Positions 1 through 13,083 of a DNA stretch of 13,083 nucleotides are shown here, in pieces. The notes under the pieces were generated by a model. The model was given only the letters and a program-made list of their open reading frames with translations, was not told the DNA's origin and did no database searches. This DNA is from Eggerthellaceae bacterium. Lineage in GTDB: Bacteria > Actinomycetota > Coriobacteriia > Coriobacteriales > Eggerthellaceae. Within the stretch, counting starts at the first letter, position 1; the number at the start of each line of letters is the position of its first letter. The position numbers and the translations under genes were made by a program. The stretch lies in the NCBI GenBank assembly GCA_017459485.1, contig JAFUCW010000270.1, positions 1 through 13,083 of the forward strand, written 5' to 3'.

Positions 1-2
1 CG

Positions 3-698
3 CCCCTAGATCGGAAGAGCGCGGTTGCCAAGTGCCTGGCGCATTACTACGACCTTGAAAGCGGATCGATTTCGCTGGGCGGGCAGGATATTTGCGACAT
101 GAGCCTGGAAGCGCTCAATGGCCAGCTGTCCTATGTTTCCCAGGAACAGTTCCTGTTCAACACGTCCATTTTGGAAAACATACGCATAGGCAAGCCGGAA
201 GCGAGCGACGAAGAGGTGGTTGCTGCTGCACGCGCCGCCCAATGCGACGAATTCGTGCGCGCACTGCCCGACGGCTACCATACGCAGGCAGGAGCGGCGG
301 GCGGCATGCTCTCCGGCGGGCAACGCCAGCGCATTGCGTTTGCGCGCGCCTTGCTCAAAGATGCGCCGGTGCTTGTCCTTGACGAGGCGACGGCCTACGT
401 CGATCCTGAAAATGCCGAAAAGATGAATGCCGCAGTCGCCGAGCTTTCGCGCGACAAGACGCTCGTCGTTATTGCTCATCGTCTGAGCTCCGTGGCGCAT
501 GCCGACAAGATTGTCGTGCTCGACAACGGGCGCATTGTCGACCAAGGCACGCACGAAGAGCTCCTTGGTCGTTGCGGCTCCTACCGCACGCTCTGGGACG
601 CCTCCGAGCAAGTCGACAGCTGGTCCCTTAAAGCGACTGAGTCAGCGGAAGGGTCGGAGCGGACGCAGGCAGCACGGGCGGACGGTGCCCCATGCTAG
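3..698 (+). CDS. ABC exporter half, nucleotide-binding domain only (5' truncated by window edge)
   Basis: This is the C-terminal ATPase part of an ABC half-transporter, about 231 residues in frame from base 3 to the TAG at 696-698. Seen: a Q-loop (VSQEQ, about 135-149), the ABC signature LSGGQ at 309-323, Walker B VLVLDEAT with the catalytic Glu near 384-386, and an H-loop His at 477-479. The membrane domain would lie upstream of the window. The Walker A motif is damaged: where GxxGSGKS is expected the frame reads PLDRKS, and this coincides with an Illumina adapter-like 13-mer at 8-20, so it is probably a sequence artefact and not a real mutation. The gene overlaps the next ABC half by 7 bases, indicating a heterodimeric exporter. 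Family resemblance is to fused permease-ATPase exporters (MsbA-like or siderophore YbtP/Q, IrtA/B-like); the substrate cannot be read from the sequence. Confidence 0.9.
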   Translation, partial: PLDRKSAVAKCLAHYYDLESGSISLGGQDICDMSLEALNGQLSYVSQEQFLFNTSILENIRIGKPEASDEEVVAAARAAQCDEFVRALPDGYHTQAGAAGGMLSGGQRQRIAFARALLKDAPVLVLDEATAYVDPENAEKMNAAVAELSRDKTLVVIAHRLSSVAHADKIVVLDNGRIVDQGTHEELLGRCGSYRTLWDASEQVDSWSLKATESAEGSERTQAARADGAPC

Positions 699-2536
699 GA
701 CTGGTACGGCAGATCATGAAATTCTGCGGTCCCTACGCCAGGCGCATCCGCGTTGCGTGGGTGTTCTCGTTTCTGCGGGCGCTCTGCGCCAACGTGCCGT
801 TGGTGGTGGCAGTGGTGCTCATCAACATGCTGATGGAGGGATCGCTTGCACCAGCAGGCTGCGTGGTTGCGGCCGTGGTGATGGTGGCGCTCATGGTGCT
901 CCAGTCCCTGTTTCAGCATGCCGCCGACCGCTTGCAGTCCACGGCGGGCTTCGAGCTTTTCGCCGACAAGCGCCTGGAGCTTGCGAACCATCTTCGCCGT
1001 CTGCCCATGGGATACTTCAGCGCTGGGAACATGGGCAAGATATCTTCGGTGCTTTCGGCCGACATGGTGTTCATCGAAGAGCATTCCATGATGGTGCTTG
1101 CCGACATCGCGTCGAATATCTTCGCGCAGCTTGTCATAACGGTGTTCATGTTCGCGCTCAACGTGTGGGTGGGACTTGCAGTGCTTGCGGCAGAAGTCGT
1201 GGCAGTGGCTCTTGCGCAGCCCATGAACCGCGAAGCGTTTGGAAACTCGGGAGCGCGCCAGCAGGCGGTCGAAGATCTGACGAGCGCTTTGCTTGAGTAC
1301 ATCGAAGGACTGCGCATGATCAAAAGCTTCAACCGCGCCGGAGAGGGCGCTGCGGACCTGCGTGCTGGGTTTCGCAGGATGACGGAAGCGAACCTTGGAT
1401 TCGAAGAAGAGCATGCTCCCTGGTTGCGGCGTTTGCTTATCGTCTATGCGCTGGGAACGACGGCTGTAGTGGCGCTTTCCGTCTGGCTGCTGGAATCGGG
1501 GGGCATAGCCGCAGGCACGTTCGTGGGAGTCATGCTGTTCGCCTTCAACCTGTTCGCTCCGCTGAAGGCGCTCTACCAGCTGGACAGCCAGATTACCATC
1601 ATGCAAGCCGCGCTCGAGCGCCTGCAGTCCCTGTTCGACGAGCCGGAAATAGCGGACGTGGCAGAAGGGGACCGCGCGGGGGCGGGTGCGGGGGAGCCAA
1701 GTTTGCTCTCCGACGGTGCGAAGCCGCGTTCTGGCGAGCCTCCTGCCGAAGTCGAATTCCGCAACGTCACCTTCGCGTACCTGGAAAAGGATGTGTTGCA
1801 AGACGTGAGCTTCACGGCACAGCGCGGACAGACGGTTGCCCTGGTGGGGCAAAGCGGATCGGGGAAGTCGACCATTGCCAACCTGCTGGCTCGCTTCTGG
1901 GACGTGAAAGAAGGTGCCGTCCTTCTGCGCGGCGTGGACATACGCACGATGCCCCTAGCACAGCTCATGGACAACCTGAGCATGGTGTTTCAGCACGTGT
2001 ACTTGTTTGAAGACACGGTGTACCGCAACATTGCGATGGGGCGTCCTGACGCAACCGAAGAGGAAGTGTGCGAAGCAGCGCGCAGGGCACGGTGTTACGA
2101 CTTCATCGCCGCCATGCCCTACGGCTTCAATACGCGCATCGGAGAAGGGGGAGCGACGCTTTCGGGCGGCGAAGCGCAGCGCATCTCGATCGCACGCGCG
2201 ATTCTGAAGGACGCGCCCGTCATCATCCTGGACGAAGCCACGGCAAGCATCGACGCGGACAACGAAAGCGCCATCCAGGCCGCCATGTCCGAACTGTGCC
2301 GCAGCAAGACCACGTTGGTGATTGCGCATCGCCTCAACACCATCGCCCATGCCGACAAGATTGTCGTGCTTGAGGATGGGCGTGTTGCAGAGCAGGGGTC
2401 GAGCGAAGAGCTGCTGGAAGCGGGTGGCGTGTTCGCTGCAATGGTGGCAAGCGCCCAGGCGTCGCACGAATGGAGCAGTGCTAAGCGTTCGCCAAGCGAA
2501 GGCGCGCTGCGCGTCGGCGAAGGGGGAGGTCCATGA
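692..2536 (+). CDS. ABC exporter half, permease fused to ATPase
   Basis: A complete 614-residue half-transporter, within the usual 570-620 range. The N-terminal membrane domain (about residues 20-310) contains hydrophobic segments near 22-46, 55-72, 134-175 and 247-290. The ATPase domain (about 353-585) has Walker A GQSGSGKS at 386-393, Q-loop Gln434, signature LSGGE at 490-494, Walker B IILDE with Glu515, and H-loop His546. All catalytic residues are present. A Gly/Pro-rich linker of about 30 residues (323-352) joins the domains. The ATG at 692 overlaps the stop of the preceding ABC gene (ATGCTAG) and no clear Shine-Dalgarno site is visible, so translation is probably coupled. The partner is the preceding gene; together they should form a heterodimeric, ATP-driven membrane pump. 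Drug, peptide, lipid or siderophore transport are all possible. Confidence 0.93.
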   Translation: MLGLVRQIMKFCGPYARRIRVAWVFSFLRALCANVPLVVAVVLINMLMEGSLAPAGCVVAAVVMVALMVLQSLFQHAADRLQSTAGFELFADKRLELANHLRRLPMGYFSAGNMGKISSVLSADMVFIEEHSMMVLADIASNIFAQLVITVFMFALNVWVGLAVLAAEVVAVALAQPMNREAFGNSGARQQAVEDLTSALLEYIEGLRMIKSFNRAGEGAADLRAGFRRMTEANLGFEEEHAPWLRRLLIVYALGTTAVVALSVWLLESGGIAAGTFVGVMLFAFNLFAPLKALYQLDSQITIMQAALERLQSLFDEPEIADVAEGDRAGAGAGEPSLLSDGAKPRSGEPPAEVEFRNVTFAYLEKDVLQDVSFTAQRGQTVALVGQSGSGKSTIANLLARFWDVKEGAVLLRGVDIRTMPLAQLMDNLSMVFQHVYLFEDTVYRNIAMGRPDATEEEVCEAARRARCYDFIAAMPYGFNTRIGEGGATLSGGEAQRISIARAILKDAPVIILDEATASIDADNESAIQAAMSELCRSKTTLVIAHRLNTIAHADKIVVLEDGRVAEQGSSEELLEAGGVFAAMVASAQASHEWSSAKRSPSEGALRVGEGGGP

Positions 2537-2718
2537 GCGAATCGAGCATCAAGATGATTGGCCTTGCATGCATGATGCTGTCTATCTTTGCCATCCTGTT
2601 TGGAGCCCATGCTGCCGAAGCGGGGGCGCCTGCCTATTTGGGCTCTGTGCTGGTTGCAGTGGGGCTGATTGTTCTGCTGGTGGGGACTATCCTTTATGTG
2701 GTGGTGAAAAAGGATTGA
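2533..2718 (+). CDS. Small two-helix membrane protein coupled to ABC exporter
   Basis: A 61-residue protein whose ATG overlaps the stop of the ABC gene by 4 bases (ATGA), with a strong purine-rich site (GGGGGAGG) just upstream at about 2522-2529. Two hydrophobic stretches are visible, residues about 7-25 and 36-58, separated by a short loop with small residues (AAEAGAP). The protein ends in a positive KKD tail, suggesting an inner-membrane hairpin with the C-terminus in the cytoplasm. I do not recognise a named family. The tight coupling argues that it is made together with the two ABC halves and may be a small subunit or stabiliser of that transporter. That role is inference. Confidence 0.75.
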   Translation: MSESSIKMIGLACMMLSIFAILFGAHAAEAGAPAYLGSVLVAVGLIVLLVGTILYVVVKKD

Positions 2719-2742
2719 GATTGCGGCTCTTCTCTTAGGTGT

Positions 2743-2759
2743 GCGCCTGGGCGCTTTTT
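2743..2759 (+). terminator. Weak hairpin plus T-run after the ABC operon
   Basis: A short GCGC / CTGG / GCGC hairpin is followed directly by five T residues. With only four base pairs it is a weak intrinsic terminator. Its position, 24 bases after the small membrane protein and just before the next promoter, fits the end of the ABC operon. Confidence 0.35.
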
Positions 2760-2765
2760 GCTGTT

Positions 2766-2774
2766 TGGTACAAT
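2766..2774 (+). promoter_or_regulatory. Extended -10 promoter for the metal permease
   Basis: TGG followed by TACAAT matches the TGnTATAAT extended -10 element with one mismatch. There is no good -35 hexamer, as is common for extended -10 promoters. Predicted transcription would begin around 2781, leaving a very short leader before the start codon at 2790. Confidence 0.45.
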
Positions 2775-2789
2775 GGGCGCCTTGTGGAT

Positions 2790-3653
2790 ATGATGCTCGA
2801 CATTCTGCTTGACGCTTTTTTGGACACGGCAAGGCTCGTGCCCTTCCTTTTCGTGACCTATTTGGCGATGGAAGCGCTCGAGCGGGCCGCAGGAGACAAG
2901 ACGGCTGCGGCAATCGAGCGTGCAGGCCATGCAGGCCCCTTTGTTGGAGCGCTGCTTGGCGCGTTTCCCCAATGCGGGTTTTCCGCGGCTGCGGCTACGC
3001 TTTATGCGGGTCGCGTTGTCACGGTCGGAACGTTGATTGCGGTGTTTCTTGCCACGTCCGACGAGATGATTCCCATCATGATCGCCGAACGGGTGGATCC
3101 CGTGCTTATTGCGAAGATCGTTGGCGTCAAGGTGGTTGTGGGCATGGTCATGGGCTTTGCTATAGACGCCGTGGTGCGCATTGTGCGCCGCAGCGCTTCG
3201 GAGCCTTTGCAGATCCACGAGCTGTGCGAAGCGGAGCATTGCCACTGCGAAGAGGGTGAAGGCGTGCTGATAAGCGCGCTGCGCCACACGCTGCAGGTGA
3301 CCCTTTTCATCTTCCTGGTCAGTCTTGCTTTGACTGCCTTTGTGGAAACGGTGGGCGAAGAGGCGCTCTCCACCTTCCTGGTTTCGAATCCCGAGTTGTC
3401 GGTGGTTGCAAGCGCTGTTGTGGGTCTTATCCCCAACTGCGCAGCGAGCGTTGTGATCACCGAATTGTACCTGGATGGCTCGCTTGGCTTCGGCGCGTGC
3501 ATGGCGGGCCTGCTCGTGTCGGCGGGCATCGGACTGCTCGTGCTGTTTCGCACGAATCGCCGTCCGCGTGAAAATGCGGCTATAGTGGTGCTTCTGCTGG
3601 CAATAGGCGTTGCGTGGGGGCTGCTGTTCACCGCTTTGGGAGTAACCCTGTAG
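2790..3653 (+). CDS. Putative heavy-metal exporter, ArsP_2 / 10-TM permease family
   Basis: A 287-residue polytopic membrane protein resembling the putative 10-TM heavy-metal exporter family (ArsP_2, PF11449), often annotated as arsenic efflux or manganese transporter-like. It has two half-repeats: the first with PQCG at residues 60-63 followed by ATSDEM near 88-93, the second with PNCA at 215-218. These Cys-containing motifs probably line the transport path. Between the halves a soluble loop carries a Cys/His cluster (H143, C146, H150, C151, H152, C153) that could bind metal. I chose the ATG at 2790 because family members begin at this hydrophobic helix and an extended -10 lies just upstream. 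A tandem ATG at 2793 is equally possible, and an in-frame GTG at 2739 would lie upstream of the promoter. The transported ion is not known from sequence. Confidence 0.8.
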   Translation: MMLDILLDAFLDTARLVPFLFVTYLAMEALERAAGDKTAAAIERAGHAGPFVGALLGAFPQCGFSAAAATLYAGRVVTVGTLIAVFLATSDEMIPIMIAERVDPVLIAKIVGVKVVVGMVMGFAIDAVVRIVRRSASEPLQIHELCEAEHCHCEEGEGVLISALRHTLQVTLFIFLVSLALTAFVETVGEEALSTFLVSNPELSVVASAVVGLIPNCAASVVITELYLDGSLGFGACMAGLLVSAGIGLLVLFRTNRRPRENAAIVVLLLAIGVAWGLLFTALGVTL

Positions 3654-3656
3654 GGG

Positions 3657-3725
3657 GTTGCCGTTTCGTGAGGGCACGCAAGTGGTTCGGGAGCAGCTGC
3701 AGAGGAGCAGAGGCTCTGCGGCAAC
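3657..3725 (+). other. Possible structured RNA leader before the HAD gene
   Basis: GTTGCCG at 3657-3663 is exactly complementary to CGGCAAC at 3719-3725. The enclosed sequence contains a CGTG-AGGG-CACG hairpin (3667-3678) and a GCAGAG/CTCTGC pair (3699-3704 with 3714-3719). The structure closes just before the Shine-Dalgarno site of the next gene. It could influence translation or be chance folding in GC-rich DNA. It matches no riboswitch class I recognise. Confidence 0.25.
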
Positions 3726-3741
3726 AAGGTAAGGAGAGCAC

Positions 3742-4413
3742 ATGATCGTACGAGGCGTTCTGTTCGACAACGACGGAACGTTGGTCGACACTCATGACCT
3801 TATCCTTTCGAGCATGCGCTATGCAACGGAAACGGTGCTCGGCGTGGAGTTTTCCGAGCGCGACCTCATGCGTGGGGTAGGCACGCCGCTTGCAACGCAA
3901 ATGCGCGACTTCACCGACGACCCCAGACTTCAAGACGAGCTTGTGAACACGTATCGTGCGCATAACCATGCACACCACGACAAGGCGGTCGCCCTGTTTC
4001 CCGATGTGGCCGAAGGGCTCGCGCTTCTTCGCAAGGAAGGGGTTGCCTTGGGCGTTGTTACGGCCAAGCGGCACGAGCTTGCGTGGAGAGGGCTGGAAAT
4101 AGCAGGCGCTGCACCGTATGTGAAGTGCCTGGTAGGGGCAGATGACTGCGAACCCAACAAGCCCGATCCTGCGCCAGTGGTCATGGGCGCTCGCCTATTG
4201 GGCCTTGAGCCGCCAGAATGCCTCTACGTGGGTGACAGCCCCTTCGATATCCGTGCGGGCAATGCGGCCGGGTGCCCCACAGTCGCCGTGCTCTGGGGCA
4301 TGTTCGGCGAAGACGAGTTGCGCACAGAAAACCCGACCTATGTGATACGCACGTTTTCGGAGCTTGTCTCCCTGGTGAAGACTTCTCGAAAAGCGGCGTT
4401 TCCCGGCAGGTGA
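3742..4413 (+). CDS. HAD-superfamily phosphatase (phosphoglycolate phosphatase / PpaX-like)
   Basis: A 223-residue cytoplasmic hydrolase of HAD subfamily IA. Motif I is FDNDGT with nucleophile Asp9 and acid/base Asp11. Motif II is VVTAK with Thr107, motif III Lys140 in PNKPDP, and motif IV GDSPFD at 164-169 with two Asp for magnesium. A helical cap domain lies between about residues 16 and 90. This arrangement fits phosphoglycolate phosphatase (Gph) or pyrophosphatase PpaX; the exact small phosphate ester cannot be decided here. The ATG at 3742 is preceded by AAGGAGAG at about 3730-3737. It lies 88 bases after the permease on the same strand and may be co-transcribed with it. Its last 76 bases overlap tail-to-tail with the minus-strand nucleotidyltransferase gene. 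Confidence 0.9.
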   Translation: MIVRGVLFDNDGTLVDTHDLILSSMRYATETVLGVEFSERDLMRGVGTPLATQMRDFTDDPRLQDELVNTYRAHNHAHHDKAVALFPDVAEGLALLRKEGVALGVVTAKRHELAWRGLEIAGAAPYVKCLVGADDCEPNKPDPAPVVMGARLLGLEPPECLYVGDSPFDIRAGNAAGCPTVAVLWGMFGEDELRTENPTYVIRTFSELVSLVKTSRKAAFPGR

Positions 4414-5678
4414 TAGGACAGGGCGTCCGCCGTGCGCGAGGCAGACGAGCGGCGTGCAGTCGCAATGGTGGCGTCGGTTTTCGCAAGTGCTTTGAGCTCT
4501 GCTGCAAACCGCTTTCTGCGAGCGGGATGGACCGCTGCGCGCACAGAACGAAACAGCAGCATCGGCGCACGTGCCCACCTGTGGCGGGCCGCAAACGGGA
4601 AGAACGCATCCCACCAGTCGTCGTCGGGGAAGAGGCGACTAAGGACATACGCGGTAGGAGAAACGCCCTTTTGCGTAGTGCGCTCAACGCGCAGCTCTGC
4701 CTGGTGGTCTACCGTGCCGTATATTCCGTACGACGTGAGCGCACCAAGGACTTTGGCGTCGTCGCGGTCAAGCTTCAAGACGTCAAATTCGGCGTCGAAC
4801 ACGAGCGAAGCTAGGTTAGCAAGAGATGCTTCGAACGGCTTGAGTCCAAGAGCTTCCAGCTCGCTGTCTACGTAGTCCCAGTCCATTTCCGCGTATTCGT
4901 GGTCGAAGAATACTATCAGGTCGCACAGGATGCGCACTCCGGTCCCACCGGACTGGAAATGCTTGTATGCGTGTGCAATCAGGTATACGTAGAAATCCTC
5001 TGGCGGAAGCTGGAGGGCGTAGGGGGAGTCGCTTTTGCGCACCAGTTTGCTCTCGATGGTGTCGTAATGCGATGCAAGCACCTGCGACGAATAGGGCGAA
5101 AACAGGCGCAGATGCATTTCGAAGTTGAAAATGGGCTTTTTGATGTACGTGTCGACGATTGTGGATTCGTGGTCGGAGGCATTTTTCACGTAGCCGCGCC
5201 TTTTGAAGAAACGAGCGACGTCTGCTCTGCGCGTTGTGTCGAACAGCAGGTCGTTGTCGCTGAACTCTCGCATTCCCAGGTGCGGATACCATTGCGCCAA
5301 TACGGCGCCTTTGAGCAGGGCATACCAAATGCCGTTCTGCTCGAACCATGAAAGGATCTGGTCTCGTTCGGTTTCGAAAAGCATCTGTCTGCGAGCAGCT
5401 TTGTCGCGCTCGTTGCGCCAGAAGGCTGCCAGGTTGGCCGGAAGGGAAGGCTCGTCTATGGCAGACTCCATGCCATACCAGGAAAGCGCGGAAAGATTCT
5501 GGCTTGCCGCAAGAGCGTGCACTCCTGCAAGATTCATCTTGCAAATGCGGGAAGGGAGCGCAGGCTCGCTCCTGAGCGCACGACCGCACAAATAGAGGAG
5601 GTCGCCGACCTCCTGAGGTACCGCCGCTTCTGTTTCAGGGTCGGTACCCATATGTCCAATAGGGAAGGTGGGTGGCAC
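4338..5678 (-). CDS. NTP_transf_5 family nucleotidyltransferase of a peptide-modification cassette
   Basis: A 446-residue protein of the uncharacterised nucleotidyltransferase family PF14907. Diagnostic parts are the LLKGAVLAQWYP segment (121-132), then REFSDNDLLFD (137-147) with the metal-binding Asp141 and Asp143, and the later AHAYKHF...GTGVRILCD block (235-253) with His236, His240 and Arg249. Members occur in some lasso-peptide and related RiPP (ribosomally made, modified peptide) loci, where they are proposed to nucleotidylate the peptide or a partner. The GTG start at 5678 lies 6 bases after the stop of the precursor peptide, so translation is probably coupled. An in-frame ATG at 5651 (residue 10) is an alternative, and neither has a strong Shine-Dalgarno site. 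The 3' end overlaps the convergent HAD gene by 76 bases. The target substrate is unknown. Confidence 0.85.
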   Translation of the reverse strand: MPPTFPIGHMGTDPETEAAVPQEVGDLLYLCGRALRSEPALPSRICKMNLAGVHALAASQNLSALSWYGMESAIDEPSLPANLAAFWRNERDKAARRQMLFETERDQILSWFEQNGIWYALLKGAVLAQWYPHLGMREFSDNDLLFDTTRRADVARFFKRRGYVKNASDHESTIVDTYIKKPIFNFEMHLRLFSPYSSQVLASHYDTIESKLVRKSDSPYALQLPPEDFYVYLIAHAYKHFQSGGTGVRILCDLIVFFDHEYAEMDWDYVDSELEALGLKPFEASLANLASLVFDAEFDVLKLDRDDAKVLGALTSYGIYGTVDHQAELRVERTTQKGVSPTAYVLSRLFPDDDWWDAFFPFAARHRWARAPMLLFRSVRAAVHPARRKRFAAELKALAKTDATIATARRSSASRTADALSYHLPGNAAFREVFTRETSSENVRIT

Positions 5679-5684
5679 AGGGGC

Positions 5685-5867
5685 CTACGGGCATACATCC
5701 GGTTTGTCGGGCCCTGGGATGGTGTAGTTTGTCGTTTCGGTCTGAACGAGCCAGTTGTCCCCGATCTGGAAGCATTGGGGCGTTGACGTTGAATTGACTC
5801 CCGAGGCCGTGATGACGTCTTCGTCAAAGCTGACAACTTCTATATGGGCTGTCTTGTAGGTCTTCAT
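5685..5867 (-). CDS. Precursor-like peptide of a RiPP-type cassette
   Basis: A 60-residue peptide. The ATG at 5867 is preceded by GAGAGAG about 6 bases upstream, and an in-frame TTG at 5885 lacks such support. The N-terminal part (about 1-23) looks like a recognition leader: a tyrosine at 4, then hydrophobic/acidic IEVVSFDEDVITASG (9-23). The remaining 37 residues are rich in Ser/Thr (STST at 26-29, T43, T45, T46, T49), with Cys32 and Cys59, Trp39, and a Pro-rich tail ending DVCP. It sits between a PqqD-like gene and a nucleotidyltransferase and has its own promoter. Known lasso precursors have a YxxP leader motif and Asp/Glu 7-9 residues into the core. Neither is present, so this is not a canonical lasso peptide. 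I infer a peptide modified by the neighbouring kinase and/or nucleotidyltransferase; the mature product is unknown. Confidence 0.75.
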   Translation of the reverse strand: MKTYKTAHIEVVSFDEDVITASGVNSTSTPQCFQIGDNWLVQTETTNYTIPGPDKPDVCP

Positions 5868-5908
5868 AGCGCTCTCTCGTTTCAATAACGTGGTATGCGA
5901 ATGGGCAT

Positions 5909-5937
5909 ACTATACTCCGAGCATTCTTTGTTTGCAA
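5909..5937 (-). promoter_or_regulatory. Sigma-A-type promoter of the precursor peptide
   Basis: On the minus strand TTGCAA (5937-5932) is separated by exactly 17 bases from TATAGT (5914-5909). Both are close to the TTGACA/TATAAT consensus. Predicted transcription starts near 5902, giving a leader of about 35 bases before the ATG at 5867. It would drive the peptide and the nucleotidyltransferase independently of the upstream kinase and PqqD-like genes. Confidence 0.65.
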
Positions 5938-6164
5938 CTGTTCAGACGGGTACGCGATTTCGTCGCTGAGCCCGTCGCTGAAACCATGAAAATCCCAGTT
6001 CATACAATTAGTATCGATATCTTTGCCTGCACCCTCGAAGACCTTTTCGCCAGCTGCAGGGCATCGGCAGAAGAGCGGGCGCTTGCTTTTAAGAACAACG
6101 TGACTCAGTTTCGTGCAGCACGGAGCGCGCGCAAGGCGGCGGGAAACGGCAAGCAGACCTATAC
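5938..6164. other. Gap between PqqD-like gene and precursor promoter
   Basis: Together with the precursor promoter and leader, this makes about 300 gene-free bases. I see no convincing gene, terminator or RNA. A nine-base direct repeat CGTCGCTGA occurs at 5961-5969 and 5973-5981. On the minus strand one frame stays open across the whole gap and ends inside the precursor gene, but its only ordinary start codon is an ATG about 60 codons before the end (near 6006), without a Shine-Dalgarno site. It overlaps the precursor promoter, so I do not call it. Confidence 0.4.
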
Positions 6165-6434
6165 CTATTCTTCTAGGGCGCCGATGCTGCGCAGGGTGTC
6201 GAGCACGTTGGCAACGTCGTATGCGAGCGTTTCGCGTGGGGCGTCGAACTCTTGCGCGAGCACATCGACGATATGCTCTTCGGTGGTTTCGGTCGCCAGG
6301 CAGTCGAGTATGACCGATGCTGCTTCGTTTGCGCGCAGCAGCCCCGAGAAGTTTTCGATCTCGCTTCCGGTGGCAACAGCGAGCTTTTCGCCATCTTTGG
6401 CGTCGTAGACGACGTATTCTTCCTTAAGTTTCAC
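6165..6434 (-). CDS. PqqD-like peptide-recognition protein (RRE)
   Basis: An 89-residue small protein of the PqqD family, the fold used as RiPP recognition element that holds precursor leaders for modifying enzymes. The pattern fits: beta-rich N-terminus (KEEYVVYDAKDGEKLAVATG), then GLLRANEAASVIL (31-43), an LATETTEEHIVDVLAQEFD helix region (46-64), and a final helix ending SIGALEE. I chose the GTG at 6434 because GGGAGGG lies 3-4 bases upstream with a purine-rich run, and because the family starts at this strand. An upstream ATG at 6485 would add 17 residues inside the kinase gene without support. The GTG overlaps the last 11 bases of the kinase gene, implying coupled translation. In the cassette it probably binds the leader of the peptide at 5685-5867. 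Confidence 0.85.
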   Translation of the reverse strand: MKLKEEYVVYDAKDGEKLAVATGSEIENFSGLLRANEAASVILDCLATETTEEHIVDVLAQEFDAPRETLAYDVANVLDTLRSIGALEE

Positions 6435-7200
6435 GGTCCCTCCCTTGTAGAAAGCAATTGTCGGATTGGCCCTGGGGCCGAACATCGTCCAACGCAGCGC
6501 GGGCAGCGTGGGCCGCCTGGATGCTGTCTGTGACTCGCAGGTGGAAAAGGGGCACTTCTTCTGCGATCTTCAATACAAGCTCGATAGTGCTGCGAGCGGC
6601 GTTCGCCGACACGGGGCGGTAGGCATGGCGCATCAGCTCCGGCGTGGCGGAGTGCGTATCTGCGCGTTGTGCGAAGTCCTGCTCTCCTTGTTTGAGAAGG
6701 CCGATGGCTGCCAGTCGGGCGCAGGCGTTCGTGGAGAGTCGTTCCTTGCCGTCCCAGGGCGTTCCGTAGACGAAGACGCCGTCTTCGCCGACGCGCACGA
6801 TGGGCTTGTCGTCGTTGATCACGTAAGGGTTTTCGTTGGCGAATGCCGTGCGCCACCAGCGCGCATGTGTGGACTTCCCCGTGCCGGAAGGCGCCATGAA
6901 CAGCCAGGAGCGGTTGCCAATTGCCACGGCGGAGCCATGGACAAGCATTCGTCCGAAACGCGGCAGTTCTTCTGCAATGGCGCGATAGACGGCCAGGGTT
7001 TCGTAATAAGGGTCGTCGAATGCCCCCTGCACGTCTTGTGTGCGCTCGTGGTCAATGTCGCGCTGACGCACGGAAACAGAGATGTCGAAAGGGCAGTCCT
7101 TGTCGCAAAGGTACGATTGGCACAGTTCGTATGTGGCAGCGTGGAGCGTTGCTACCTGGACGACCAAATTCGCAAGGCGTATTGAAAATGTGTGCCCCAT
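6424..7200 (-). CDS. HPr-kinase-like P-loop kinase of a peptide-modification cassette
   Basis: A 258-residue protein related to the C-terminal domain of HPr(Ser) kinase and to the HprK-like kinases of paeninodin-type lasso clusters, which phosphorylate a Ser of the precursor. Seen: His88 in the LVHGSAV strand, P-loop APSGTGKST (103-111), the INDDKP element (128-133) with paired Asp, and YGTPWDGK (145-152). It is shorter than true HprK (about 310 residues) and lacks its N-terminal domain, so it is unlikely to regulate HPr. The ATG at 7200 has an AAGGGGG site about 9 bases upstream; an in-frame TTG at 7242 would precede this. It is the first gene of the minus-strand cassette and overlaps the PqqD-like gene. 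Its likely substrate is the nearby Ser/Thr-rich peptide; this is inference. Confidence 0.87.
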   Translation of the reverse strand: MGHTFSIRLANLVVQVATLHAATYELCQSYLCDKDCPFDISVSVRQRDIDHERTQDVQGAFDDPYYETLAVYRAIAEELPRFGRMLVHGSAVAIGNRSWLFMAPSGTGKSTHARWWRTAFANENPYVINDDKPIVRVGEDGVFVYGTPWDGKERLSTNACARLAAIGLLKQGEQDFAQRADTHSATPELMRHAYRPVSANAARSTIELVLKIAEEVPLFHLRVTDSIQAAHAARAALDDVRPQGQSDNCFLQGRDRET

Positions 7201-7644
7201 GCCCTCAGAGCCCCCTTCTTCCGAAAAGACAGCTCGCGCCAAAGGTGTTGGCTTCGATGCTGAAAAGAAGGGCGGGCAAACCGAGCTTGTTCAATAGGCT
7301 GTCTGTCATTTCAGTCTAAAGCGCGACTCCTGCTGCGTGGTGCGAGCGGGCATTAAGGCTAGAACAAAAATGCCTGCTGTGTGGAAAGCACATTACATGT
7401 AAACACAGAGAAGCGCATGCGGCAAGCGTCGCTTACGGCAAAGGCAGTTCGCTGGTGCTAGCGCGCGTGCATTCGCATAACGAGGATGGAAGCTCCCTAT
7501 GGTGGTAAGCGCCCAAAGCGTTCTGTGAACATGAGCCACTTCGTCCACCGGGTGACAAGAGCACAGATTTGGGGCGCGTACGGCGTATAATGGGCACAAC
7601 GAAGTCGATCATTCCCGCTTGTGCGGGCAGACAAGGAGTGCATC
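7201..7644. other. Divergent intergenic region between kinase cassette and ferritin
   Basis: About 440 bases without a supported gene on either strand. It holds several inverted repeats that could be operators: GGCATT (7349-7354) with AATGCC (7369-7374), the perfect palindrome TTACATGTAA (7393-7402), and AAGCG-T-CGCTT (7424-7434). The ferritin promoter lies at its right end. I found no convincing -35/-10 pair for the kinase gene and no tRNA. No clear Fur or DtxR box is visible. Confidence 0.4.
7586..7591 (+). promoter_or_regulatory. -10 element of the ferritin promoter
   Basis: A perfect TATAAT lies 54 bases before the ferritin ATG. The region 16-18 bases upstream (around ACAGAT, 7563-7568) is only a poor -35, so the promoter may need an activator. 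A TGACA further upstream is too far away. Confidence 0.5.
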
Positions 7645-8160
7645 ATGCAAGCAAATATCGCCAAATTGATCAATGAACAGATCAACGCCGAGTTCTACAG
7701 CGCCTATCTCTACTTGGCGTTCGCCGACTACTACGAGGAAGTGGGCCTTTCGGGCTATGCCAACTACTTCGAGATCCAAGCTGCCGAAGAGCGCGACCAT
7801 GCGCTTATCTTCCGCAAGTACCTGCACGAAAACGGCGAAAACGTCACTCTGAAGAAGATCGACCAGCCCAAGATTAGCTTCAAGAAGCACATCGAACCGC
7901 TTGAGGCGGCGCTTGAGCACGAGAAGCTGGTCACTTCGCTGATTAACAAGATCTATGACGCGGCAAACAAGGCGAGCGATTTTCGCACCATGAACTTCCT
8001 CAATTGGTTCATTGACGAGCAGATGGAAGAGGAGGACAACGCCGACACCATGGTCACGCGCATGAAGCTCTTCGGCGAAGATGCAAAGGCGCTCTACGAC
8101 CTTGACACCGAATGCGCTGCCCGCACCTATTCCACACCCAGCCCGCTTGTCGGGGCGTAG
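7645..8160 (+). CDS. ftnA: Bacterial non-heme ferritin
   Basis: A 171-residue ferritin, normal length, that should form a 24-subunit cytoplasmic shell oxidising ferrous iron and storing it as a mineral. The four-helix bundle and ferroxidase ligands line up with E. coli FtnA: Glu16 (FtnA Glu17), Glu49 and His52 in the AAEERDH motif, Glu93, and Gln126 in the DEQMEEE segment. No heme-binding Met as in bacterioferritin is evident. The ATG at 7645 has AAGGAG six bases upstream; an in-frame GTG at 7621 lies upstream of this site and is unlikely. The gene is transcribed alone, with a TATAAT box 54 bases upstream and a strong terminator 30 bases downstream. It diverges from the kinase cassette. Iron or peroxide control is likely by family but no operator is recognisable. 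Confidence 0.93.
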   Translation: MQANIAKLINEQINAEFYSAYLYLAFADYYEEVGLSGYANYFEIQAAEERDHALIFRKYLHENGENVTLKKIDQPKISFKKHIEPLEAALEHEKLVTSLINKIYDAANKASDFRTMNFLNWFIDEQMEEEDNADTMVTRMKLFGEDAKALYDLDTECAARTYSTPSPLVGA

Positions 8161-8189
8161 GCCGAACTTTTTCGAGACGTGAATGACAG

Positions 8190-8221
8190 TGCGCCGCGCG
8201 CAGGAAGCGTGCGGCGCATTT
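8190..8221 (+). terminator. Intrinsic terminator after ferritin
   Basis: A 12-base-pair GC-rich stem (8190-8201 with 8207-8218, one G-U pair) with a five-base AGGAA loop, followed by TTT. The short T-run is modest, but stem stability and position make this a good terminator. Confidence 0.7.
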
Positions 8222-8286
8222 CGCACGTAAGATGAAAAGAACCAGGTGCTTTTTGTCGGCGCATCATCCGGTTCGTTGGGGGCACG

Positions 8287-9126
8287 ATGCAAGAAACGCT
8301 CAATATAGGATGCCATCTTTCTGCGTCGAAAGGGTACCTGCACATGGGCAAGGAAGCGTACTCCATCGGCGCGAATACGTTCGCGTTCTTCACGCGCAAT
8401 CCCCGCGGCGGACGCGCCAAAGACGTCGATCCGGAAGACGTCGCCGCGTTTCGCGCGTTTGCCGTTGAGCATTCGTTCGCGACGCTGGTGGCCCACGCTC
8501 CCTATACGCTTAATGCTGCCGCGAAGGATAGTCGTGTGGCGGAATTCGCTCGCGAGACATTCGCTGACGACCTGAAGCGGATGGAAGCCACGCCAGGGCA
8601 ACTGTATAACTTCCATCCCGGCGCGCACGTGGGCCAAGGCCCCGATGTGGGAGTGGAAAAAATCGCCGCAGTGCTCAACGAGGTCCTCGAACCTGGCCAG
8701 ACCACCATGGTATTGCTCGAGACTATGGCGGGAAAGGGCACCGAAGTGGGCCGCACGTTCGAAGAGCTTGCGGCAATCATCGACCGCGTGAAGCTGGACG
8801 GTCGGCTGGGCGTGTGCCTGGATACGTGCCATATCTGGGACGGCGGCTACGACATAGTGGATGACCTGGACGGCGTCCTTGACGAATTTGACCGCGTCAT
8901 TGGAATCGAGCGCCTGCGTGCAGTCCACCTCAACGACAGCAAGAACCCCCTGGGTGCGCACAAAGACCGCCACGAGAAGATCGGGCAAGGGCATATCGGG
9001 TTCGAAGCGCTTTCTGCGCTCACGCGCCATCCTGCGCTGCGAAGGCTTCCCTTGATCCTGGAGACTCCCACCGAGCTTGACGGCTATGCAGACGAGATTG
9101 CGCGGTTGCGAGAAGCATGGAGGTAG
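8287..9126 (+). CDS. nfo: Endonuclease IV (AP endonuclease)
   Basis: A 279-residue deoxyribonuclease IV that cuts DNA 5' to abasic sites in base-excision repair, using a three-zinc cluster. All expected ligands are visible: His70 (AHAPYTLN), His110 (FHPGAH), Glu145 ([10 protein letters not shown]), Asp179 and His182 (LDTCH), His214 (VHLNDSK), Asp227 and His229 ([13 protein letters not shown]) and Glu259 (LETP). Length is typical (about 280). The ATG at 8287 follows a weak GGGGG site at about 8278-8282. It is separated from ferritin by a terminator and stands 169 bases before the dipeptidase gene. No terminator is apparent after it. Confidence 0.96.
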
Positions 9127-9295
9127 GAAAAGGGGCGTATTTCGCGCGGGGTCTTTGGGGACTTTGGGCCACGTGCGTTCAGGATGCGCTAAGATGACCG
9201 TATGCAACTGCATCTGTGCGGCCGGCCATATTGGCAGAGCAAGGCAGGAACCGCACGCCCTGTTTTTCGCGGCATGGTAGGCAAGGAGGCCCTTA

Positions 9296-9949
9296 TTGCA
9301 TATCCAAGACCCTACGCTCGATTCGTCCGGTTTCGTCCTGCTGGCAGACTACGTTCCCAGCATAGTGCAAGAAATCCGCTATCATTCCACCTTCAACTTC
9401 GTGGGGGAGCGCATCGACGGCTACGAGGAGCCCATCGCGCTTCTTACACTGGAGGCGGCACGGGCGTTAAAGACGGTGAGCAACGAGATGATCGTGCGAG
9501 GCTACCGGCTGAAGGTGTTCGACGCGTACCGTCCTGCGGTCGCAGTGAAGCGCTTCATTTTCTGGGCGATCGAAGACGACGATGTGCGCATGAGGCGCTA
9601 CTTCTACCCGAACACCGACAAGGCCGATTTGTTCGAGCGGGGCTACATTGCCAAGCAGTCGAGCCACAGCAGGGGAAGTGCCATCGACTTGACGTTGCTC
9701 GACATGGAAACAGGCAAGGAATTGGACATGGGAGGCCCCTTCGACCTGTTCGACGAGGTGTCGCATCCTTCGTTTCGCGGCATTACCGACGAGCAGTACG
9801 CGAACAGAATGGTGCTCCAGGAATCCATGGTGCGCAACGGATTTAAGCCCTTGGATTGCGAATGGTGGCACTTTACCCTTGTAGACGAGCCCTACCCGAA
9901 CACGTATTTCGACTTTCCCGTGGCTATGTCGTCCTTGCGTCGGCAATAG
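9296..9949 (+). CDS. D-alanyl-D-alanine dipeptidase, VanX/DdpX type
   Basis: A 217-residue zinc dipeptidase (peptidase M15D) that hydrolyses free D-Ala-D-Ala. Zinc ligands His124 and Asp131 (SSHSRGSAID) and His192, catalytic Glu189 (EWWHF), and substrate Arg79 (DAYRP) occur at exactly the spacing of VanX Arg71, His116, Asp123, Glu181, His184. The start is a TTG at 9296, decided by a perfect AAGGAGG (9283-9289) six bases upstream; no ATG suits. There is no signal peptide, so it acts in the cytoplasm. Neighbours are nfo and tatA, not vanH, vanA or vanRS, so this alone does not imply glycopeptide resistance. Recycling or use of cell-wall dipeptide is more likely, as proposed for DdpX. Confidence 0.93.
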   Translation: MHIQDPTLDSSGFVLLADYVPSIVQEIRYHSTFNFVGERIDGYEEPIALLTLEAARALKTVSNEMIVRGYRLKVFDAYRPAVAVKRFIFWAIEDDDVRMRRYFYPNTDKADLFERGYIAKQSSHSRGSAIDLTLLDMETGKELDMGGPFDLFDEVSHPSFRGITDEQYANRMVLQESMVRNGFKPLDCEWWHFTLVDEPYPNTYFDFPVAMSSLRRQ

Positions 9950-9976
9950 GGCGCGCCCCGATTCGCTTCAATCGTG

Positions 9977-9982
9977 TACAAT
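9977..9982 (+). promoter_or_regulatory. Possible -10 element of the tatA-mob operon
   Basis: TACAAT preceded by GTG and followed by an AT-rich run (TTAAAA) lies 41 bases before the tatA start. No -35 hexamer is recognisable. The local AT-richness in GC-rich surroundings supports a promoter. Confidence 0.4.
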
Positions 9983-10022
9983 TTAAAACGAGGGGACGGA
10001 CAAATCGCATGAAAGGACTGCC

Positions 10023-10265
10023 ATGAAGATTCTTGGCATGGGCGTTCCGGAGCTAGTTATCATACTGGCTGTTGCTCTGCTTATTTTTGGCCCGAAAAAC
10101 CTACCGAAGTTAGGCAGCGCCCTAGGTAAGACAGTGAAAAATTTGCGTGAGGGTATGGGAAGCACGGCGGCTGCCGACGAAGATGACATCGAAGAGGCCG
10201 TCGACGAATCCAAGCCTAAAAGCGACGACAAGACCCTAGCGCTTGAAGAAGGCAAAGAGGCATAA
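10023..10265 (+). CDS. tatA: Twin-arginine translocase subunit TatA
   Basis: An 80-residue TatA/E protein, the pore-forming subunit that exports folded proteins across the membrane. It shows the short N-terminal transmembrane helix (about 8-22), the hinge FGPKNLPKLG (22-31), an amphipathic helix (about 26-45) and a very acidic, lysine-containing tail. TatA and TatB are hard to separate by sequence, but the FGPxxLP hinge and short tail favour TatA. The ATG at 10023 follows AGGA at 10014-10017. The stop codon is immediately followed by the mobBA start, so the two are one operon. This is sensible because many Tat substrates are molybdo-enzymes that need the guanylated cofactor. tatC is not in the window. 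Confidence 0.92.
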   Translation: MKILGMGVPELVIILAVALLIFGPKNLPKLGSALGKTVKNLREGMGSTAAADEDDIEEAVDESKPKSDDKTLALEEGKEA

Positions 10266-11519
10266 ATGGGCTCTTTGCTGCCTAGCCCCGCGGTCGCTAT
10301 CGTGGGGCGCCATAATTCGGGCAAGACCACGCTCATAGTGTCGTTGATCGGCGAGCTATGCGCTCGCGGCCTTGATGTGGGCAGCATCAAGCACCACAGC
10401 CACGCAGGGTTTGACATCGACGTGCCCGGAAAGGATTCCTTCCGGCATCGGGAGGCGGGTGCATCGGAGACCATCATTGCCGCGCCCGACCAGATGGCGC
10501 AAATCTCGACGCTTGCGCACGAGCTCGAATGCGCCGATCTGGTTGCCCGAATGCCGGGGCACGACATCGTGCTAGTGGAGGGATATCGCAAAAGCGGCAT
10601 TCCTACCATCGAAGTAATGCGTTCGGGCAATGCGGCCGACGTTCAGGTCGCCCAGGCGTTTTTGGATTGCGCGAAAGCGGGGGAGCCGCTGAGCAGCGAC
10701 TTCGTACAGCGCGCACGGTGGGAGGCGTCCTACAATCCTTCGGTCGACGTGGTGGCGAAGATGCCGCACTCCTCCACGGTTGCGGTGGTCTCCGACATTC
10801 CTGCGGCGCGCGAGGCGGCCAAGCTCTACGAAGTGCCGGTCTTTACGCTCGGCGACGTTTCGGGGATATGCGATTTCCTGGACCAGCATTTCGTGCGGTC
10901 GCGCGTGACGGTGGCAATCCAGGCAGGTGGCGAGTCGAAGCGTATGGGCAGGAGCAAGGCGACAGTGCCGTTCGCAGGCCGTCCGCTCATCGCCCGAATG
11001 GTGGAGCGCGTGGCCCCTGCTGCCGACGAGATACTCATCACAACCAACGAGCCCGAAAACCTCCAGTTCCTTTTCGACGACTTTCCTGGGCTTCCGATTC
11101 GCCTTGTGCGGGATGCCCTTGACGAGCGTGGTGCGCTGCCGGGGCTGCTGACGGCTTTTCAGGCCGCAACCACTCCCTTCGTTGCCATCGTCGCATGCGA
11201 CATGGTGTTTGCCTCACCGAACCTGATTGCGGCCGAATGCGCAGAGCTTGCGTTGTCGCAGGCAGACTGCGTCGTGCCCGTGAATAAGCACGGATTCGAG
11301 CCCTTTCATTCCGTGTACGTGCGCGAAACGTGCCTACCTGCCGTGCGCGCGCATGTGGATGCGGGGGAAAAGAGGGCGCAGTCGATGCTGCCAGATCTAA
11401 AGGTGCGCCATTTCAGCCGAAGCGAAGTCCTTGCCGCTGAACCTATGGGCGGCTGCTTTATCAATGTGAACACGCCTGAAGAGCTCGAGGCTATCGAGCG
11501 CCAGTTCCTAGAGCTGTAG
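10266..11519 (+). CDS. mobBA: MobB-MobA fusion, molybdopterin-guanine dinucleotide synthesis
   Basis: A 417-residue cytoplasmic fusion. Residues 1 to about 205 are MobB-like: P-loop GRHNSGKTT (14-22), IKHH (41-44), the DSFRHREAGA element (57-66) and VEGY (104-107). Residues about 213-417 are MobA, which transfers GMP from GTP to molybdopterin: AGGESKRMGRSK (220-231), Asp312 in the ACDM metal site, and INVNTPEEL near the end. Separate MobA and MobB are about 195 and 170 residues, so the fusion has full-length halves. The MobA loop begins IQAGG where LAGG is common. The ATG at 10266 directly follows the tatA stop. The product is the cofactor of DMSO-reductase-family enzymes, typical of anaerobic respiration. 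Confidence 0.93.
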   Translation: MGSLLPSPAVAIVGRHNSGKTTLIVSLIGELCARGLDVGSIKHHSHAGFDIDVPGKDSFRHREAGASETIIAAPDQMAQISTLAHELECADLVARMPGHDIVLVEGYRKSGIPTIEVMRSGNAADVQVAQAFLDCAKAGEPLSSDFVQRARWEASYNPSVDVVAKMPHSSTVAVVSDIPAAREAAKLYEVPVFTLGDVSGICDFLDQHFVRSRVTVAIQAGGESKRMGRSKATVPFAGRPLIARMVERVAPAADEILITTNEPENLQFLFDDFPGLPIRLVRDALDERGALPGLLTAFQAATTPFVAIVACDMVFASPNLIAAECAELALSQADCVVPVNKHGFEPFHSVYVRETCLPAVRAHVDAGEKRAQSMLPDLKVRHFSRSEVLAAEPMGGCFINVNTPEELEAIERQFLEL

Positions 11520-11565
11520 GCAGCGCATTAGGCATGGTGCTGCGCTGCCGTGCCTGCGGCATGGC
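11519..11565 (+). terminator. Overlapping hairpins after mobBA
   Basis: GGCAGCGCA (11519-11527) pairs perfectly with TGCGCTGCC (11541-11549). A second stem, GCCGTGCC (11547-11554) with GGCATGGC (11558-11565, one G-U), shares bases with the first, so the two are mutually exclusive. There is no good T-run, so termination efficiency is doubtful. Confidence 0.4.
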
Positions 11566-11570
11566 TTGTC

Positions 11571-11579
11571 TGGTATACT
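11571..11579 (+). promoter_or_regulatory. Extended -10 promoter of the amino-acid ABC importer
   Basis: TGG followed by TATACT fits the extended -10 consensus with one mismatch in the hexamer. It lies 83 bases before the lipoprotein start. No clear -35 is present. The same TGG-plus-hexamer form appears at 2766-2774. Confidence 0.5.
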
Positions 11580-11661
11580 AGCGAAGTTACTTTAGTGCGT
11601 TAGAGCATTGCAGCATTGTGCGGTGTGCTGGCGCGTTATTCGTTCGAAAGGGAAGGGAACC

Positions 11662-12534
11662 ATGAAGAAGAAAATCGTGTCGATTGTCGTATTCGCATTG
11701 GCTGCGGCGTTCGCGTCGTTTGCCCTGTTCGGATGTGGGGGAGGCTCGGCTGCGTCGTCTGGCGCAAGCGCGGATGCCTCTGCTTCTGCTGCGAGCGCAT
11801 CTGCAAGTGGTGGGTCCATCGACAAGCTCGTGGTTGGCTTCGACGCCGAATACCCGCCCTATGGATATGTAGGCGACGACGGCGAGTACACGGGCGTCGA
11901 CTTGGACTTGGCCGCGGAGGTGTGCAAGCGCAATGGCTGGGAGTTCGAAGCCGAGCCGATCGACTGGGATGCCAAGGACTCGCTGATTCAGGCAGGCACC
12001 ATCACCTGCATTTGGAACGGATTCACGGTAACCGAAGAGCGCAAGGCAGTGTACGATTTCTCCGATCCGTACATGTACAACGCCCAGGTGCTCGTAGTGC
12101 GCGCCGATAGCGACATCTCTTCTCTCGACGATCTTGCGGGAAAGCATGTGATGACTCAGACCGATTCCGCAGGTCTTGACGCCTTGACCGACGAATCCCT
12201 GGCGGATGTGGTCAAGACGTTTGCGGGCGGCGCCCCTGAAACGCTGGGCGACTACAACAACATCATGATGCAGCTCGAGTCCGGCGCGGTCGACGCCGTC
12301 GTGTGCGACCTGTCGATTGCCGCGCGTCAGATGGCCGCCAAGTCGGGGGTCTTTAAGCAGGTGGAGACGCTTTCCGACGAAGAGTACGCCGTTGGCTTCA
12401 AGAAGGGCGACACCGATCTGGCCAATGCCGTTAACGCCACGCTCAAGGAAATGACCGACGACGGCACCGTGGAGAAGATCCTGAAGGCTTACGAAGACCC
12501 GGCCGTATCTATGGAGAACTGGCTTATCAGCTAG
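11662..12534 (+). CDS. Amino-acid ABC transporter substrate-binding lipoprotein
   Basis: A 290-residue extracellular solute-binding protein family 3 member. The signal peptide begins MKKK, has a hydrophobic core (about 5-21), and ends in a lipobox LFGC with lipidated Cys25. A Ser/Ala-rich linker (about 29-52) tethers the domain to the membrane. The binding domain starts at KLVVGFDAEYPPYGY and includes FTVTEERKAVYDFSDPY, the conserved region around the ligand-binding Arg and the hinge. The ATG at 11662 follows AAAGGGAAGGG; an in-frame ATG at 11608 would place extra residues before the signal peptide. It is followed by a terminator and then by the permease gene, the usual arrangement that yields excess binding protein. 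Polar or acidic amino acids are plausible ligands, but specificity is not readable. Confidence 0.93.
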   Translation: MKKKIVSIVVFALAAAFASFALFGCGGGSAASSGASADASASAASASASGGSIDKLVVGFDAEYPPYGYVGDDGEYTGVDLDLAAEVCKRNGWEFEAEPIDWDAKDSLIQAGTITCIWNGFTVTEERKAVYDFSDPYMYNAQVLVVRADSDISSLDDLAGKHVMTQTDSAGLDALTDESLADVVKTFAGGAPETLGDYNNIMMQLESGAVDAVVCDLSIAARQMAAKSGVFKQVETLSDEEYAVGFKKGDTDLANAVNATLKEMTDDGTVEKILKAYEDPAVSMENWLIS

Positions 12535-12552
12535 TCCCGATTGTATTATTGG

Positions 12553-12586
12553 CGGGCGCCCGGCTGCATGGCGGGCGCCCGTTTTT
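12553..12586 (+). terminator. Intrinsic terminator between binding protein and permease
   Basis: CGGGCGCCCG (12553-12562) pairs with an identical self-complementary copy at 12572-12581 across a nine-base loop, followed by five T. This is a strong intrinsic terminator. Partial read-through would lower permease expression relative to the lipoprotein. Confidence 0.85.
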
Positions 12587-12621
12587 CGCGTAGTGGGGCA
12601 CTTGCAGGGGAAAGGAGGACC

Positions 12622-13083
12622 GTGGAGCTTTCTACGATGATGTCGCTGCTTGGCAGTGGCCTGGTGCTGACAGGGCAAATCTTCGTCGTCACGCTGTTGG
12701 GTTCGCTGCCGCTCGGCGTGCTCATCGCCCTGGGGCGCATGAGCAAATTCAAGCCGCTGGCGTGGCTCATGCGCGCATATATCTCGTTCATGCGCGGCAC
12801 GCCCCTGATGCTGCAGCTCATGGCGCTCATGTTCGGCCCCTACTACCTGTTCGGCATGCAACTAGGTTCCGAATGGAAATTCTGGGCGTGCGACATCGGC
12901 TTCATCTTGAACTATGCCGCCTACTTCGCCGAGATCTACCGTGGCGGCATCCAGTCGATTCCTCGTGGCCAGTACGAGGCGGCCGAGGTGCTCGGCTACA
13001 CCAAGGCGCAGACTTTCATGAAAATCGTGCTGCCGCAGGTCATAAAGCGCATTCTCCCTGCCATGGGCAACGAGGTCATCACA
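12622..13083 (+). CDS. Amino-acid ABC transporter permease (3' truncated by window edge)
   Basis: An open frame of 154 codons that runs off the right end; full-length relatives are about 215-230 residues. It is a HisM/GlnP-type membrane subunit. Hydrophobic segments are visible near residues 9-38 and 58-90. The motif RAYISFMRGTPLMLQL (48-63) is typical of the family. The EAA loop that contacts the ATPase reads EAAEVLGYTKAQTFMKIVLP (131-150). The start is GTG at 12622 with AAAGGAGG at 12611-12618, only three bases away, which is short. ATGs at 12637 and 12640 are too far from this site to be better. It pairs with the upstream binding lipoprotein; the ATPase gene should follow outside the window. 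Confidence 0.93.
   Translation, partial: MELSTMMSLLGSGLVLTGQIFVVTLLGSLPLGVLIALGRMSKFKPLAWLMRAYISFMRGTPLMLQLMALMFGPYYLFGMQLGSEWKFWACDIGFILNYAAYFAEIYRGGIQSIPRGQYEAAEVLGYTKAQTFMKIVLPQVIKRILPAMGNEVIT

Follow-up and report, generated by a model that had tools for sequence, protein, structure and literature searches.

The subject of this study is a peptide-modification cassette on the minus strand of contig JAFUCW010000270.1 from an Eggerthellaceae bacterium (GenBank assembly GCA_017459485.1), of which positions 1 to 13,083 were analyzed as a whole and are called the window below. It comprises genes for an HprK-like kinase, a discrete PqqD-like RRE (RiPP recognition element; RiPP, ribosomally synthesized and post-translationally modified peptide), a 60-residue precursor peptide and an NTP_transf_5 nucleotidyltransferase. 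We consider it probable that the window holds most of a RiPP cassette like those of the linear polyphosphorylated peptides (LPPs), from a branch in Coriobacteriales that has a leader type of its own, and that the other parts are elsewhere in the genome. Systems of this kind have already been published as LPP (lppAKBSDN; Popov et al., Nat Commun, 20 May 2026; PMC13381572), and ours is a divergent branch, which very likely works like LPP. According to the available parts of that paper, on which our statements about LPPs are based, LPPs are defined by a signal peptidase I-like (SpI-like) protease, a discrete RRE, an HprK-like kinase, an NTP transferase and an MsbA-like transporter; the precursor receives up to four phosphates, the site being core Ser3, and the leader is cut by LppS with LppB after Thr-1 (PMC13381572).

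The four genes that a preliminary description had placed on the minus strand of the window are all present, and the tight junctions it mentioned hold in part: the kinase gene (6424..7200, 258 aa, ATG at 7200) and the RRE gene (6165..6434, 89 aa, GTG at 6434) overlap by 11 bp (6424-6434), and 6 bp separate the peptide gene (5685..5867, 60 aa) from the nucleotidyltransferase gene (4338..5678, 446 aa, GTG at 5678), but 297 bp lie between the RRE and peptide genes. The single sigma-70-like match between 4200 and 7700 (TTGCAA-17-TATAGT, 5909..5937, minus strand) lies just upstream of the peptide gene and may be its promoter, though one match is no excess over the 0.9 expected in shuffles. The sequence AGTATAGTATG precedes the peptide gene in the window and also the sister peptide gene in the corresponding locus (L011) of a sister genome (G004). 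Terminator-like sites (three found, 4.1 expected) were not used, and the window had no Rfam match at gathering score.

The HPr-kinase-like identity stands without a Pfam match, by the fold of the model and the catalytic residues. The AlphaFold2 model of the kinase (mean pLDDT 91.7, pTM 0.88) gave 62 fold matches in the PDB at E <= 0.001, and the 50 listed were all PEP carboxykinases or HprK/P. His88, Lys109 (GTGKSTH), Asp130 and Asp131 (NDDKP) are invariant across 42 aligned sequences including that of the window, and His-Lys-Asp-Asp is described in the accessible part of PMC9266682 as the catalytic set of lasso-peptide kinases. A protein search found 2016 kinase homologues at E <= 0.001; PF27840 is borne by most of those listed and was not reported in the Pfam scan of those scanned. 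The window kinase itself matched no Pfam model and one NCBIfam model at E 0.047, no other, and PDB sequence searches with the kinase and nucleotidyltransferase profiles gave no match below E 0.2. The PqqD-like and NTP_transf_5 proteins are what they were called before, exceeding their Pfam cut-offs with 44.5 bits against 23.4 for PF05402 (PqqD; scored on the longer open reading frame (ORF) 6165-6485) and 150.2 bits against 31.2 for PF14907. The RRE is 81% identical to its counterpart in L011, and G124, D141, D143 and D147 of the nucleotidyltransferase are invariant in 23 aligned sequences including that of the window. This pair of kinase and RRE differs from the HPr-rel-A system (TIGR04352, TIGR04353), which we take to combine an HprK-type kinase with a PqqD-like protein: the window RRE reached 17.7 bits against a TIGR04353 cut-off of 35, TIGR04352 was not matched by the window kinase, and two kinase relatives reached 12.4 and 17.8 bits against its cut-off of 200.

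The leader of the precursor peptide, MKTYKTAHIEVVSFDEDVITAS, keeps the Tyr and the final Ser of the LPP motif and differs in the remainder. Leaders beside the cassette in many loci of Clostridia and Coriobacteriales follow the consensus Y..[P/A]..E[VI][IV].F..EDVIT[TA]S. A profile built from 18 leader sequences was run on 13919 ORFs and shuffled copies of them; 43 ORFs (among them the seeds' own and those of a few overlapping loci) and no shuffled copy reached 10 bits, and 51 ORFs and three shuffled copies reached 5 bits. When the window and G004 peptides were both excluded from profile building, the former scored 27.0 bits (E 2.8e-8), the highest value among the 226 ORFs that the window and L011 have together, and the G004 peptide came second (11.5 bits, E 0.002). 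The window peptide is more than a chance ORF, because the held-out profile ranks it first. The sister peptide (L011 5902-6096) has the same residue at 15 of the first 22 positions, and a C-terminal GPDKPxxCP is common to both. In all loci searched, 42 leader ORFs scored at least 12 bits, 40 of them distinct, and 38 were analyzed after two that did not match the motif pattern had been dropped. Tyr is in range in 37 of the 38 peptides, at a spacing to Ser of 19 in 33 and 18 in three, the window having 18; three residues after Tyr, 17 peptides have Pro and 10 have Ala, and Thr stands two before Ser in 30. The regions after the leader differ widely, which suggests a leader-core precursor. Thus the alignment proposed in the preliminary description did reveal a conserved leader, recurring in the relatives' loci, and variable cores.

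Relatives were collected by a genome scan with 42 kinase sequences, which gave at least 586 confirmed kinase relatives, and 80 loci were kept. By record title they are mostly Clostridia (many of them metagenome-assembled genomes (MAGs) from rumen or gut), with some Coriobacteriia and one Kandleria; one each is titled Alistipes, Prevotellaceae, Bacteroidales and Synergistaceae, where binning may be wrong. Neighbors were called by profile search, since an earlier pass over long ORFs left 20 loci without a kinase, partly through antisense shadows. With profiles made from these loci, we found a recurrent gene run of kinase, RRE, protease, ABC exporter and nucleotidyltransferase. The RRE was near the kinase in 65 of the 80 loci and the protease in 57 (both within 3 kb), the exporter in 39 (at least 300 bits) and the nucleotidyltransferase in 31 (at least 60 bits; both within 6 kb), and all four in 19, counts that are lowered by short contigs. 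Co-occurrence of the families without a lasso cyclase had been suggested as a check; a search with one query of limited sensitivity gave one weak AsnB-like match (L080) among the ORFs of the 80 loci. The best NCBIfam model for the one stand-alone protease tested was archaeal-type signal peptidase I (28.4 bits, below the cut-off of 51.85) and for the one exporter tested an MsbA-related model (192.2 bits, below the cut-off of 780.4). Ser23, His61 and Asp76 of the protease are invariant in 25 sequences.

The association was also seen within the class of the window. Among its 396 genomes, the kinase was matched in 24 (E <= 1e-10) and a query of RRE and protease together, the protease alone not being counted, in 24 (E <= 1e-5); the two coincide in 21 genomes as counted by eye (hypergeometric 1e-28, with kinship not removed and the own genome included). 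In a genome of the same family (G019), the cassette is part of a 202-kb contig, with neighbors that read as rplI, rpsR, ssb, rpsF and dnaB, which speaks against contamination by a small contig in that genome; the cassette stretch there has a G+C content of 34%, versus 59% for the window. In Kandleria's class, 79 of 395 genomes were matched, all of at most 2.7 Mb. Two other features of the relatives' loci were observed. Nine radical SAM genes lie in or beside the kinase-RRE-protease cassette of six loci (L025, L038, L061, L072, L077 and L087), three of them consecutive in L061, and the one protein that was searched in Pfam and NCBIfam looks like a SPASM peptide maturase, its NCBIfam scores being under the cut-offs. 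In L112 (1279-1803), a 174-aa frame that begins as a kinase and ends as an ABC protein looks like a deletion remnant.

The preliminary description regarded the four genes as a stand-alone system. They do not look complete as such: relatives add a signal-peptidase-like protease and an MsbA-like exporter, and the own genome has both on other contigs. No SpI-like protease was found in the window by profile search, and the genome holds one protease homologue at E <= 0.1, on a contig of 4.2 kb (C206). This protein (P0122, L098:1450-2205, 251 aa) is a fusion of an RRE (residues 1-86) and a protease (residues 108-244); its AlphaFold2 model has a mean pLDDT of 87.0 and a pTM of 0.72, the RRE strands being the weaker part. 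Its neighbors read as mechanosensitive-channel-like and surface-protein-like genes, and the contig is without a kinase. A second RRE-protease fusion (P0123, 294 aa) was seen among the best 120 of 303 homologues. Other natural fusions join kinase and RRE (L077 and L117), kinase and protease (L177, L186 and L190) and nucleotidyltransferase and protease (L200), the last two kinds in genomes of Kandleria's class. The exporter counterpart is on contig C384 and is 77% identical over 606 residues to the ABC protein preceding the kinase in G004; a GT2 gene adjoins it, which by reading of the translations corresponds to the GT2 gene in the G004 cassette. Since the window is one contig (C182) of a MAG that is 72% complete and in 504 contigs, the cassette may or may not be linked to the C206 and C384 genes. 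The window has two ABC genes of its own (3-2536, plus strand), which end about 1.8 kb beyond the cassette and have partial identities of 25% and 35% to the G004 exporter. Its other genes include an arsenic-efflux-like permease (2739-3653; NF037962, 326.6 bits against a cut-off of 100) and, by NCBIfam scan, a fusion of MobB-MobA type (10266-11519), both of which look ordinary.

The resemblance to LPP covers most parts of the system. The window has the HprK-like kinase with His-Lys-Asp-Asp, the discrete RRE and an uncharacterized NTP transferase, and no cyclase; the relatives' loci have the SpI-like protease and MsbA-like exporter, with which the best NCBIfam models agree below cut-off; the invariant Ser, His and Asp of the protease are like S29, H68 and D93 of LppS (PMC13381572); and the precursor has a conserved N-terminal leader with a Tyr, a conserved Ser ending the motif and a variable core. 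On the other hand, LPPs were called restricted to Bacillota (PMC13381572) and our host belongs to Coriobacteriales; here the protease and closest exporter are on other contigs, an RRE is fused to the protease, and the window RRE is not specially close to LppB. We keep the cassette apart from strict LPP because the leader motif fails and the place of its RRE in the LPP clade is tentative. The main text of the LPP paper mentions none of the words "Clostridia", "Coriobacteri" and "radical SAM" (PMC13381572). The same accessory families were reported with lasso clusters in rumen bacteria (PMC7533575, in its available part), and in the literature searched we recognized no other description of the EDVIT leader or of this gene combination.

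By analogy with LPP, the product is likely a linear peptide that would carry phosphate on Ser22 and perhaps a cap, and that would be exported after cleavage close to residue 20. The predicted leader comprises residues 1-20 (5867-5808) and the predicted core residues 21-60 (5807-5688), both the cut site and the phosphorylation site at Ser22 being taken over from LPP. The RRE would bind the leader via Tyr4 and the following strand, and the kinase would add one or more phosphates to the conserved Ser22, on which the nucleotidyltransferase may place a nucleotidyl or sugar group as a cap. Leader removal, close to residue 20 and following ...EDVIT, may be the task of the signal-peptidase-like protease on C206, which is fused to a second RRE, and export of a linear core some 40 residues long that of the MsbA-like ABC protein on C384. 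Cleavage one position earlier, after residue 19, corresponding to the exact Tyr spacing of LPP (Tyr to Ser 18), was considered; we prefer Thr20, because Thr stands two before Ser in most of the family's peptides and LppA is cut after Thr. In LPP, the step in which the RRE presents the leader to the protease was studied with an AlphaFold3 model and mutagenesis, LppS being too poorly soluble to co-crystallize (PMC13381572). Most likely, the peptide is secreted or stays at the surface.

Several observations weigh against an LPP-like cassette. Neither the protease nor the closest exporter adjoins it. The window leader has a Pro-to-Ala change, YKTA replacing YxxP, and does not match the LPP motif YxxPxVLxHQxIxFETxxS, being without its HQ or FET. 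The core is long, with 39 residues from Ser22, which is exceeded by two of the other 37 peptides, and a protein search that required exact five-residue words gave no second copy of the window peptide. That the peptide is kept next to the enzymes in relatives, as expected before, is true for 32 of the 80 kinase loci, which have a leader of at least 12 bits, but not for the 48 that have none at this score; in 12 of the 80, the kinase has no partner nearby at all. In the class of the window, the kinase occurs in three genomes that the RRE-protease query did not match, and that query matched three genomes in which no kinase was found. The spread is also patchy, with a kinase match in five of 41 genomes (own included, one at only 8.8e-5) and the nucleotidyltransferase in three of 41. 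The RRE profile, when compared with the PDB, scores higher with the lasso RRE TbiB1 (26.9 bits) than with LppB (16.1 bits, E 0.097, a weak match), with TfuB1 at 21.5 and PbaB1 at 19.7 bits. Finally, deletion of lppN was without effect in the B. subtilis host (PMC13381572).

This last result also bears on a refinement of the LPP-like reading with which its probability overlaps, namely that the peptide mainly carries a nucleotidyl- or glycosyl-phosphate and that phosphate alone is just an intermediate. We hold this refinement tentatively, at somewhat less than an even chance. It is consistent with the invariant Asp residues of the nucleotidyltransferase, with the GT2 gene beside the exporter in the own genome and in the G004 cassette, and with the finding that phosphorylated pseudomycoidin receives its hexose only with the help of PsmN, a homologue of the nucleotidyltransferase (PMC9266682, available part). 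Against it stand the published host, in which deleting LppN changed nothing, and the 49 of 80 loci, some of them truncated, in which no nucleotidyltransferase was seen near the kinase. Also against it, searches with two queries placed GT2 relatives at a distance of up to 5 kb from the kinase in one of the 80 loci, and a glycosyltransferase as a general partner is not supported.

Alternatively, the operon may have lost its protease and exporter, so that the cassette is a decaying remnant that no longer works. The separation of these two genes from the cassette and the patchy distribution described above would agree with such decay. In G004, an IS200-like (Y1_Tnp) transposase gene (L011:3354-4127) lies between the kinase and RRE genes, with short repeated coding-like stretches nearby; as it splits these two genes, the locus appears to be undergoing rearrangement in the genus. 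On the contrary, none of the four genes in the window is interrupted and their motifs are intact, and the genome still has the RRE-protease fusion and the exporter gene, each with an open frame, so we regard decay as improbable.

Least probable is a paeninodin-type lasso cluster with its cyclase and B2 protease elsewhere in the genome. PF13471, which we take to cover the lasso B2 protein, had no match over cut-off in the own genome, which is the 72% complete MAG; of 50 of the 80 cassette genomes, 10 had a match at E <= 0.001 and one was over cut-off (26.4 bits, 274-aa frame), in a search without a lasso genome as positive control. The absence of lasso cyclase and transglutaminase-like protease from the window, as first described, was borne out by reading of the ORFs and by Pfam and NCBIfam scans of the scanned proteins. 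On the further question, whether such genes lie just outside the contig, PF13471 speaks for the B2 protein: the own genome and 49 of the 50 cassette genomes have no match over cut-off, and one genome has. PF00733 has two matches in the own genome. One is an asparagine-synthase-like protein of 530 aa (L206:8537-10129) on contig C462 (12.4 kb), which matches the lasso cyclase model NF033535 (117 bits against a cut-off of 525) but scores higher with other models, among them asparagine synthase (228.3 against 267.1) and eps_aminotran_1 (238.1 against 816.9), all below cut-off; profile searches found no kinase, RRE, protease, nucleotidyltransferase or leader on that contig. The frame lacks a counterpart to roughly the first 70 residues of the family models, the front being missing or in another frame. 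The other match (C382, 21.7 bits) reads like the tRNA thiouridylase MnmA beside a cysteine desulfurase. Paeninodin-like clusters do hold the same three accessory families, and paeninodin and pseudomycoidin share with our cassette the HprK-like kinase with His-Lys-Asp-Asp, the RRE and the nucleotidyltransferase homologue (available parts of PMC9266682 and PMC13381572). However, our cassette has no linked cyclase, its leader has Tyr4 in place of the Trp of the paeninodin motif WxxP and no Trp elsewhere, and its predicted phospho-Ser adjoins the leader, while theirs is at the C terminus. With the single weak AsnB-like match among the 80 loci, these searches and the relatives' loci support, at the level of sequence, the earlier proposal that a kinase and a nucleotidyltransferase act here in a peptide system that is guided by an RRE and free of lasso enzymes.

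A wider and rather doubtful extension of the LPP-like reading is that Clostridia (many from rumen or gut) and Coriobacteriales possess a large, separate, lasso-independent branch of RRE-guided phosphopeptides with the EDVIT[TA]S leader. In this branch, the kinase, RRE, protease and nucleotidyltransferase might form one physical complex, and the Ser-phosphate might serve as a handle for further groups (nucleotidyl, sugar or, in some clusters, radical-SAM cross-links) before export. The four kinds of natural fusion would then reflect enzymes that work as one complex.

If the LPP-like reading is true, a RiPP family called restricted to Bacillota extends into Coriobacteriales. Moreover, its tie to the leader type of many Clostridia loci (at least 586 kinase relatives, with the leader in 32 of 80 loci) would give many new precursors. 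How the leader is presented to the protease might be studied with the natural fusions of the protease to RRE, kinase or nucleotidyltransferase, which are candidates for such work.

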